Shown: piece after piece, positions 78-59,512 of the stretch
Position numbering within the stretch: position 1 is the stretch's first letter
Layout: each line of letters opens with the position of its first letter
Origin: Heterotrichella gracilis
Lineage: Eukaryota; Sar; Xanthophyceae; Tribonematales; Xanthonemataceae
DNA length: 64,000 bases
NCBI GenBank assembly: GCA_032358255.1
Contig: JAULBX010009106.1
Span: 1-64,000, forward strand
Direction: 5' to 3'
Position numbers and translations under genes: made by a program
The notes under the pieces: model-generated
Told to the model about the DNA's origin: nothing
Database searches by the model: none
What the model saw: the letters and a program-made list of their open reading frames with translations, nothing else

Positions 78-3000
78 ACGAAAATGTGTTGCTCACGTTG
101 TATGTGTCTCCCCCCTCGTAGGCCTCCATCTCGCGTTCCCTCTTTGACCTGCGCAGCACCAGGTACTTACATAAATAACACAAACAATAACTCTTCTGTT
201 TTAAACGTGACTTAATGCGTATCTTTGATATCTTTACGCATACAGAAATGCTACGTTTTTAAGTTGTGCAAGACAGGACTGGCTTGCATGCAGGCCCAAG
301 GCATGCAGGACAGACCTCCTGAGCTGCGGTGCTGTAAATTTACAACGCCGAGTTTCTACAAAATTATTAAGCAGCCTTTCTGGAACAGGCGCGTTTATGG
401 AGAAAGCAAACTATAAACAGAGAGAAGTTCCACTTCCAGCTGGGAATGCCTTTTACTGTAATTGTGCCAAGGATCCTCTCAAGAGGAATACTTCCCTGCC
501 AACCAATAGTATGCCCCCTACCTGCGTTGCTTTACCCACAGCGCAAGCACAGCAATCAGCGCCAGGGCCACCACGCCACCCACCACACCACCCACTATGG
601 CGCCAGTGTTGCTGCTGCTGCTGCTGCTGGGTGTGGTGCTGGTGGTGGTGGTATTGGTAGGGGCGGCGATGGATGTGGCGGGAGGGGGTAGAGCTGGTGG
701 GAGTGGGGGTCGTGGGATTGTGGAATTGGGGAGAATCGCGAAGCCAATGGGGATGACTTGGGTGATGGGGAGGCCTGTAGATGAAACAAAAAAAGGAAAT
801 CATGTGACATGATACTGTTTTGGATTTTACATATTACTTTTACTTGCTTAAGCTGACTAATCTTTCTGGGCACTGTTTTGCGTGAAACTAATCTTACTGC
901 ATGAGGAGTGTCAACCGCAGAAAATAACGCATTATCCATTGCCCTACAGGGTTCCCACCTGCTGTTGCAAAGAAGGTAGTGGCGGCATCCGCACATGCCG
1001 AGAGGGTCTCTTCCTTGTACACCGCCGTCCAGGTGAGGAAAGGAATCAACACATGCACGCGGGTCACCGCCAGCGCCCCCGTTGAGTTACTCCCCATCAT
1101 CCCCCCTGGCGCGATGGTGGTGTTGGGGCTGCTCTGGAGCAGGCACCGATAGTGGGTGGTGGTGGCGGTGGTGGGGAGTGAGTGGTGGAGGAGGCGGCGG
1201 GATGAGCCGGAGGTTGGTGGTGCTGCGATGATGGTGTTGTTACCTTCTGTGGTAAAAAAGGTGGTCACCCCGTCTGGGACGTACTCGTAGCCCTGGAAAA
1301 GGGGGCCAATGTGGGCGTGTGTAAGAATCGGGTGGCTAAGTACCTTCCGTTCCATTGAATGTGTTTTATATCATATGATCAGTGTGGATACATGCATACC
1401 GGGGTGATGCCTGGCTTGGGAAAGCCAAGTATACTTCAGTTCATGTATCCATCAACCCAATGTCAACTGTCATTATTTGCTTACCAGGAAGTTTAAGGTC
1501 CCAATGTCAACTGTGATTATTTGCTTACCATGAAGTTTACCCTCTGCGAGGTAAGTGACAGCTCCACCGTCTTGTCCGCTACCTGCAGATCACCAGCTGC
1601 AAGGGTGCGGTTGCCAAGGGCATCGAGCACAACCTGTGGGGTGGGGTAAGGGTTTGAGTTTAGGGTTTAGGGTTTAGGGTCTAGGGTGTGGTTGGCCAGG
1701 GCGTCAAGCAGCACCTGGGGTGGAGGGTAAGTTAAGGGTTTAGGGTTTACGGTTGAGAGTGCGGTTGCCCAGGACATCAAGCAGCACCTGGGAAGGAGGG
1801 TACACGTTTAGGTTTTAGGGTTTTAGATTCAGGGTTTTAGGGTTTAGGGTGCGGTTTCCCAGCGCATCAAGCAGCACCTGGGGAGGACGGCAAAGGTCAA
1901 GACTGGTTTAGGTTTCAGGGTTCTGGGTGCAATTTCCAAGGCCAACAAAGAATTGGGGGCACAGCGCACACCCTAAACAGCGTGCCCACAGCGCACCTGC
2001 ACCAGTTGGAGGGTATCCGCTGGGGGGGTATAGCCTGGCGGGAGTATCATATCCCCCTGGCTGCCGTCCAGCATGAGTGCGGATAATATGATTGCCTTGA
2101 TGGGGATGTTCTGGCTATTCAGGTTGGACTCGAGCACATCCATGGGCAGGTCCTGCTCAAGCACTTGAGGCCAGCCCTGGAGGGCAACATGAAATGGATT
2201 TTAGAAATAATATTGGAAGTTTAAAAATAAGTATAAATCTGGGCGATGCTCAGGGGCAGACCCTGGTCTAGCACTAGGCCAGCCCTGGGACAAAATAAAA
2301 TAAAACTTGTATAAAAAGCATAAATACACCCAAAATAGGCACAGGAATAACCGTATCTATATGGGCAGTCCTGCTCATGCACCTCGGGCCAGCCCTGGAG
2401 CACAGGTGTTGCACCAAACCCACCCACGGTACCAAGCCAAAAGCACCTACCGAGACTGGGAAGGTTGCATTGGCCACCACCATCCCCTTTGTGCTGGTGT
2501 CAAAGCTCATGCGGATGTTGCTAGGGTCCTGGGAGGTGGTCCAGTTGTTGGTCTGGAGCCACACAGGCAGCGCAACCTGGTACACCTCCTGCGCAACAAA
2601 GGCTTAGGGTTCAGAAATGGGGTTTAGGGTTTGGCCACTGTACCACCAGACACACCCAAGGGCTTAGGATTGGTCTGCGAACACACGGGCAGCGCAACCT
2701 GGCACACTTCCAGCGCAACACAGGTTAATGTGTAAGGTTTGGAGATCAGCGTTCAGGGTTTTGGTGCCTCGTATATAGAGAGGTGGTCCAGTTGTTGGTT
2801 TGCAGCAACACATGCAGCGCCAACCTGGTACACCTGCTGCGCAACACGCAAAAACCCTAGCTTGGCGTTCGACCTCCAGATCTCCCCCATCTCCCAACAT
2901 CCCCTAACCCACAGCGCAGCAGGACGCAGTTAATTTCCAGGGTTCCACGTATGCCAAACCATCACCACCCATTGCCCACAGCATACAGCCTCACGGGTCC

Positions 3001-59512: not shown

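Follow-up and report, generated by a model that had tools for sequence, protein, structure and literature searches.

Local copies of exon edges in the adjacent introns of a 64-kb window from Heterotrichella gracilis

Introduction

New introns in Daphnia have been attributed to staggered double-strand breaks, with internal repeats reported in 61.1% of them versus 16.2% of other introns (PMC4202315; this and the other papers are cited here from abstracts or excerpts). Here we describe exon-edge echoes, which are copies of the end or the start of an exon lying in the adjacent intron, in positions 1 to 64,000 of contig JAULBX010009106.1 of the xanthophyte Heterotrichella gracilis (the whole stretch analysed, hereafter the window). 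According to the Daphnia excerpt, the two cases are alike in direct repeats made by staggered breaks, in repeated bouts and in passive intron lengthening, the break origin of the echoes being our proposal. However, the exon-intron repeats of Daphnia are 4-12 bp long, with one at each end of an intron gained recently, whereas single aligned echo units are 27-186 bp long, most of them cross the splice junction, and they lie inside introns of undated origin (PMC4202315). Long repeats within undated introns stand here against short repeats at the two intron ends.

Tandem genomic duplication was reportedly put forward as an intron source by Gao and Lynch in 2009. It is proposed as such in a review (PMC3443670) and in a further paper (PMC4974935). 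Judging from the excerpt, the model shares with the echoes a local duplication within a gene that may include splice sites; in the model a new intron arises from a duplicated AGGT, whereas the echoes add an exon-edge copy to an intron already present, with no new one seen to arise (PMC3443670). Breaks with complementary 3' ends give rise to small tandem duplications through CST / Pol alpha-primase, and the echoes resemble these as short tandem duplications. However, the evidence for the CST / Pol alpha-primase duplications comes from breaks induced in cell lines, and the abstract makes no mention of an exon-edge bias (PMC8355091). Direct repeats near intron/exon borders have also been read as break-repair scars by Rogers and Bendich (2025); as excerpted, their repeats are 4-30 bp long, were found by setting the two borders of each intron against each other and are read as insertion scars (PMC11782384). 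Introners share with the echoes the gain of intron-associated sequence, but an introner is one element found across many genes, as far as the excerpt goes (PMC9860276).

Among the literature matches listed, all from open-licence papers, we found no description of such exon-edge copies, which is weak evidence of novelty. What we report is a real, strong exon-edge bias inside a known mutation class, namely short tandem duplication and staggered-break repair at introns. The sequence-only reading of the window, in which the pattern was first noticed, knew of no described system acting at nearly every exon and put the novelty forward as an inference; the class of process is already in the literature, and what stands out is how strong the exon-edge bias is, together with the unit length.

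Results

Self-BLAST of the window gave 95 high-scoring segment pairs (HSPs) less than 4 kb apart, of which 75 were direct and 20 inverted. Our main count was restricted to direct pairs less than 700 bp apart with a BLAST raw score of at least 40 in three plus-strand genes with homology support, which together contain 44 introns (17,850 bp) and 88 internal exon edges. On this count, 37 direct pairs touched an exon and fell on 26 of the 88 edges (14 donor and 12 acceptor), so that 30% of exon edges had an echo in the adjacent intron and 21 of the 44 introns were affected. Eight pairs at the same score lay wholly within introns; seven overlapped echo footprints and a single one was independent (26452/26613, 41 bp, score 42). 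The contrast held at a threshold of at least 36 (29 edges versus two independent intron-only families) and at one of at least 44 (25 versus 0). Order-3 Markov shuffles yielded no direct pair in 10 replicates, and no inverted pair was found in the three genes at a score of at least 44, the only cut-off listed, self-palindromes having been left out by the script. The 26 edges exclude two weak exon-interior matches (parents 32910-32932 and 34774-34823) and three further edges that reached a score of only 36-39. All findings cover one 64-kb window of one organism.

A second comparison with 60-mers agreed with the pair counts. Exon-end 60-mers scored at least 40 against their own adjacent intron at 21 of the 88 edges, versus 0 of 440 when exon ends were compared with introns other than their own, and 2 of 53 when exon middles were used. 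Intron-internal 60-mers reached this score in 33 of 220 cases. Thirty-two of the intron-internal 60-mers were listed at a score of at least 42, and by reading 30 of them lay within echo footprints; of the remaining two, the one at 41187 matched into the echo array before the exon starting at 41506, and the one at 53445 was a GT-rich simple repeat. Exon edges were thus enriched over random intron segments by 60-mer counts, by pair counts and by the simulations described below, so that the refutation test set by the sequence-only reading, in which random intron segments would be duplicated locally as often as exon edges, came out in favour of the echoes.

These counts confirm the exon-edge echoes in the window, on both the donor and the acceptor side and always in the adjacent intron, as the sequence-only reading had it. 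Its statement that nearly every exon is affected was too strong given 26 of 88 edges and 21 of 44 introns, and its claim of at least five unrelated genes holds for the three homology-anchored genes and one predicted fourth gene. The latter (1602..11447, minus strand) is a codon-bias prediction only, for two pieces of which no Pfam match was found; all nine of its local repeat families overlapped a predicted exon, predicted exons making up 2403 of 9110 bp. It was further claimed that the process lengthens introns. Echo-bearing introns were indeed longer (median 439 versus 284 bp), in a comparison that is partly circular.

In the 19 cases listed, the copy-to-copy distance was 73-214 bp and the non-aligning spacer between copies 4-187 bp. 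Unit ends were sharp even in young pairs (51823-51930/51975-52082 and 23734-23832/23934-24032). Aligned units reached or crossed the junction at 22 of the 26 edges, and at the other four they ended 1-10 bp inside the exon. By our reading of the alignments, the exonic part averaged 54 bp and the intronic part 29 bp, the exonic part being the longer in 20 of 26. Most copies thus include intron bases, which bears out the proposed origin by DNA duplication. The direct repeats lie close together in a unit-filler-unit arrangement with sharp ends, and both of these features of staggered-break duplication were found, so that the suggested staggered-break origin fits the anatomy. The echo-footprint list, the splice-site list and the exonic and intronic unit lengths were typed by hand from the alignments.

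The copies differ widely in age, as had been supposed. The best echo per edge showed an exonic identity of 0.81-1.00 (median 0.91, 25 edges), and pairs went down to ~73-75% overall. The most similar long case, singled out earlier as 23935-24019, aligned 23734-23832 with 23934-24032 at 96% over 99 bp, with 79 of 80 exonic bases identical.

Among the echoes found with exonic sequence alone (n=37, a set that takes in the two weak interior matches and omits the echoes of the exon ending at 39357), differences at the three codon positions numbered 53/47/130, seven of ten gaps were not multiples of three, and stops occurred in 4 of 37. With one echo per edge (25 edges, 1384 bases) the changes were 34/35/80, giving a ratio of 2.32 (95% confidence interval 1.79-3.27); six of seven gaps were frameshifting, there were three stops, and changes at positions 1 and 2 made up 69 of 149. 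Equal change at positions 1 and 2 with a ratio near 2 is consistent with a copy that drifts neutrally while its parent takes up mostly synonymous changes, whereas alleles or selected exons would be expected to give a much larger codon-position ratio. Because of the frameshifts and the equal change at positions 1 and 2, the bulk of the echoes are neither alleles nor conserved alternative exons. The suggestion that they supply alternative exons was not supported, since the copies decay like noncoding DNA, and the interpretation given in the sequence-only reading holds in part.

A list of junction-reaching echoes that omitted nine copies had GT kept in 20 of 21 donors and AG in 9 of 10 acceptors. 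Of the nine omitted copies two keep the splice site and seven have lost it, which brings the totals kept to 21 of 26 on the donor side and 10 of 14 on the acceptor side. Retention of the splice dinucleotide is therefore near or below the neutral expectation (~86% at 7% decay). Judged from their sequence, many echoes are possible decoy splice sites.

The 26 edges with echoes, all on the plus strand, are distributed over the three genes as follows. The methionyl-tRNA synthetase (MetRS) gene (20285..28669, plus strand, 13 exons in the model, supported by Pfam and by phmmer against PDB) has two donor-edge echoes of the exon ending at 21331 (21435..21602), one of the exon ending at 23813 (23934..24032, the youngest long case, with 99% exonic identity), five of the exon ending at 24457 (24499..25255, an array with a TTTAGGG-like spacer) and echoes of the exon ending at 25623 (25704..25828). 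Donor-edge echoes that have lost the donor follow the exons ending at 26264 (26319..26454) and 28075 (28166..28256). Acceptor-edge echoes precede the exons starting at 22611 (22528..22564) and 28472 (28384..28432), in both of which the aligned unit starts 10 bp into the exon, and the exon starting at 23270 (23034..23169).

The pyruvate:ferredoxin oxidoreductase (PFOR) gene (31022..43000, plus strand) has 23 exons, the last cut short at 43000, and is supported by phmmer against PDB: its model (1137 aa) matched 6cin with an E-value printed as 0, residues 1-900 and 917-1130 being aligned. Donor-edge echoes here number three for the exon ending at 31834 (31885..32150, a 93-bp array), two for 33104 (33142..33364), three for 34848 (34934..35182), one for 36605 (36667..36744) and two for 39357 (39427..39554). 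On the acceptor side, single echoes belong to the exons starting at 32480 (32259..32354), 36414 (36249..36302, AG lost), 36942 (36834..36867, the aligned unit starting 6 bp into the exon), 37747 (37597..37685) and 42911 (42675..42814). The exon starting at 41506 has two (41249..41449), and that starting at 35519 has one (35431-35468) with an older related copy beside it (35302..35468 together). Three short near-perfect hairpins also lie in PFOR introns (35381-35429, 37333-37383, 38119-38150), two of which start with CAAGGG and finish with CCCTTG; these may be tiny hairpin elements. They and the segment 15271-15404 are self-palindromes and account for 4 of the 20 inverted HSPs.

The third gene encodes a DEAD-box RNA helicase with a GUCT domain (49040..55141, plus strand, 11 exons used; Pfam DEAD, Helicase_C and GUCT). 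This GUCT-type helicase resembles the chloroplast protein RH3. Its exon 49389-49664 has a doubtful start, and the first part was omitted from the Pfam query. It has donor-edge echoes of the exons ending at 49664 (49716..49792), 51890 (51975..52082) and 52483 (52583..52768), and acceptor-edge echoes of the exons starting at 51308 (51230..51258) and 53237 (53018..53044, initially predicted as an exon).

The window contains no N and has a GC content of 50-61% per 4-kb block. The seed exons have a GC3 of ~83%, the introns are GT-AG and TTTAGGG-type motifs are present, features by which the window reads as eukaryotic nuclear sequence. The MetRS gene was first located through read-through frames compared with Pfam and PDB, and a gene finder was then trained on the seed exons. 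Its output fused genes and called seven echo stretches as exons, which were taken out by hand (23966-24013, 31883-31927, 31976-32020, 32068-32112, 32282-32316, 41319-41414 and 53023-53052). Predicted pieces before 20285, in the interval 46127-48628 and beyond 55141 were discarded, exon 42911-43097 was cut at 43000, one exon end was shifted from 25725 to 25623 and one exon start from 32449 to 32480. Reading phase was consistent at all 44 junctions of the final model (43 of 44 before a one-base shift). A degenerate MetRS motif pattern matched 0 viral contigs and 55 bacterial/archaeal stretches, which provided no relative or second allele for comparison.

Other repeats in the window are of different kinds. 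A dense inverted-repeat (foldback) stretch at 5480-9527, including for example a palindrome at 6418-7354, holds 16 of the 20 near inverted HSPs; it falls inside the span of the minus-strand gene prediction and is probably a cluster of transposons. The segments 60301-61185 and 62856-63676, 2.6 kb apart, are direct copies of each other that have diverged (68.5% over 924 columns); their open reading frames are related, and they are probably copies of one mobile element. A 93-bp direct repeat (17353-17445 and 17863-17955, 78.5%) falls on two 87-bp exons predicted on the minus strand as part of a lysine-rich tail, and may be a whole-exon duplication that is still in frame. In composition, CpG is depleted (observed/expected 0.44 in introns and 0.64 in exons) with TG and CA raised, which suggests cytosine methylation.

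Discussion

The direct orientation, close spacing and unit-filler-unit form of the echoes point to duplication by the repair of staggered or one-sided breaks. We give an even chance to the proposal that the echoes are short direct genomic duplications, made repeatedly by such repair in or near exons. A staggered or one-sided double-strand break would arise in an exon end, and the broken end would be extended beyond the splice junction by fill-in or by re-copying of its own sequence; joining with filler would then produce unit-filler-unit. Duplications within the exon would be eliminated by selection. One that spans the junction would keep one intact exon and splice site and so be neutral, and its second copy would stay in the intron and decay. 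The break, the fill-in, and a breakage or repair route commoner in exonic DNA are the steps that we infer.

Tentatively, and with less confidence, we extend this to intron growth. Recurrent exon-anchored break-and-copy may deposit exon ends with working splice sites in the adjacent intron, so that introns would grow from the edge inward and hold a layered fossil record of past exon states, of which the third-position differences in the family of the exon ending at 31834 would be an example.

Several observations weigh against the proposed duplication by break repair. Selection accounts for the intron-side position of the surviving copies; it does not account for the sparing of intron interiors, which needs a breakage or repair route favouring exonic or junction DNA. 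No breakpoint signature was found, a CpG lying at most 3 bp from the exon-side end of the unit in 9 of 26 cases versus 8.7 expected. The families of the exons ending at 24457, 31834 and 34848 form arrays inside the intron, so that duplication of intron DNA is possible where an echo already exists, and short-period intron arrays found by Tandem Repeats Finder fall outside the BLAST count (e.g., 27066-27162, 45 bp x 2.2). In the 31834 family (four copies, 31792-32112), seven of eight variable columns are third codon positions by our own count, a pattern that pure noncoding decay does not readily give and that is an exception among the echoes. Finally, the hand edits to the exon list were made with the repeats already known, and they drew on homology, phase and the repeats themselves. 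CpG-linked paired nicks were also considered as the source of the breaks; exons are denser in CpG than introns (6.63 versus 3.03 per 100 bp), but these nicks were rejected because unit ends are no nearer to CpG.

A rather unlikely alternative makes the splice junction itself a hotspot, where polymerase stalling, R-loops or quadruplexes at the G-tracts that follow donors and the C-tracts that precede acceptors would lead to breaks, and where telomerase- or CST-type processing would add TTTAGGG-like filler. Base composition is favourable to it, as G-runs make up a fraction of 0.22 over the 25 bp that follow a donor and C-runs one of 0.28 over the 25 bp that lead up to an acceptor, compared with 0.01-0.18 in other intron bins. 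The motif itself is abundant. TTTAGGG 10-mers number 175 in the window versus 2.65 expected, TTTAGGG/CCCTAAA 9-mers 230 versus 7.45 expected (enriched in introns and beyond the three genes, one of the 230 lying in exons of these genes, with both orientations in introns), and intron TTTAGGG 8-mers 136 versus 11 for the next motif of the same composition. Telomeric tracts are also denser in echo footprints (30 in 5972 bp versus 19 in 11878 bp), but arrays repeat the same tract. The motif tends to be G-oriented close to donors and C-oriented close to acceptors (Fisher P=0.003 for k=7 and 0.36 for k=8), a trend that could be plain G/C skew. Counted per footprint against the expectation from echo-free introns, telomeric k-mers occurred in 15 of 26 versus 10.7 (P=0.07, k=7), 9 of 26 versus 5.8 (P=0.10, k=8) and 6 of 26 versus 5.2 (P=0.41, k=9). 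On these event-level values the motif, strongly enriched as it is in noncoding DNA, is not significantly tied to the echoes, and telomerase filler is not counted here among the established parts. The G-tracts past donors and C-tracts ahead of acceptors are a possible candidate trigger.

Random local duplication everywhere, with exon-end copies merely recognisable for longer through their conserved parent, is in our judgement improbable. Some such effect must exist: the parent of an edge echo is constrained, so that edge pairs decay about half as fast as intron pairs and should stay visible ~2x as long. In a simulation, duplications were placed uniformly across the actual gene structures, left to decay neutrally and scored against a cut-off; an equal neutral rate across introns, 15% indels, uniform ages and frozen exons were assumed. 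Over ten settings (cut-off 42) the simulated edge:intron ratio was 0.48-1.58 versus the observed 26:1. With units scaled from those observed and a cut-off of 40, the edge share was 0.38-0.51, and the probability of at least 26 edges among 27 was 1.7e-10 to 2.8e-7, or at most 2.0e-6 when two intron-only families were allowed. Even the most generous setting (units 60-250 bp, ratio 1.58) gave P values of 3.2e-5 (26 of 27) and 1.9e-4 (26 of 28). The observed exonic fraction of units (0.70) is in the direction expected from longer visibility, but it exceeds the 0.53-0.62 simulated for detected units, which favours the break-repair proposal. Echo divergence at positions 1 and 2 is only ~7%, an age at which intron-only pairs would be expected to retain ~85% identity and to be found with ease. 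The exon-edge bias is real under the simulation assumptions.

That the echoes are retained as alternative exon ends or splicing decoys seems very unlikely. The splice sites kept in 20 of 21 donors and 9 of 10 acceptors among the listed junction-reaching echoes would favour retention, as would the 31834 family with its almost exclusive variation at third codon positions. Once the nine omitted copies are added, however, retention does not exceed what neutral decay predicts, and the changes by codon position, the frameshifts and the stops resemble those of neutral copies overall; conserved alternative exons are unsupported on the same grounds.

An assembly artefact, in which haplotypes or unmerged contig overlaps were joined in introns and doubled the conserved exon ends, deserves hardly any credence. 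The echoes do sit where such joins would fall, and the youngest one (23934-24032) differs by one third-position change in 80 exonic bases. However, exonic identity of best echoes falls to 0.81, graded arrays hold 3-5 copies, and the window has no N; haplotype misassembly was rejected for the bulk of the echoes on the frameshifting gaps, stops and position 1 and 2 changes (69 of 149).

Three other classes were rejected more briefly. Intron gain via a duplicated AGGT does not match aligned echoes that consist of exon end, donor and intron start (or intron end, acceptor and exon start) inside an intron, no separate AGGT scan having been run. Tandem duplication of whole exons, as in mutually exclusive exons, disagrees with pairs that, as listed in the three genes, cover one edge each, with frameshifts in seven of ten gaps and stops in 4 of 37. 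Introner elements were dismissed since no match to another intron reached a score of 36, either in 440 comparisons of exon edges or in 220 of intron-internal 60-mers.

The origin of intron sequence and the lengthening of introns are an old open question. In the window, 21 of the 44 introns examined carry a datable trace of one growth route whose source is known base by base. If the pattern is genome-wide, the echoes would form an age series for intron growth, and they would provide a natural test of how the spliceosome chooses between near-identical neighbouring splice sites.

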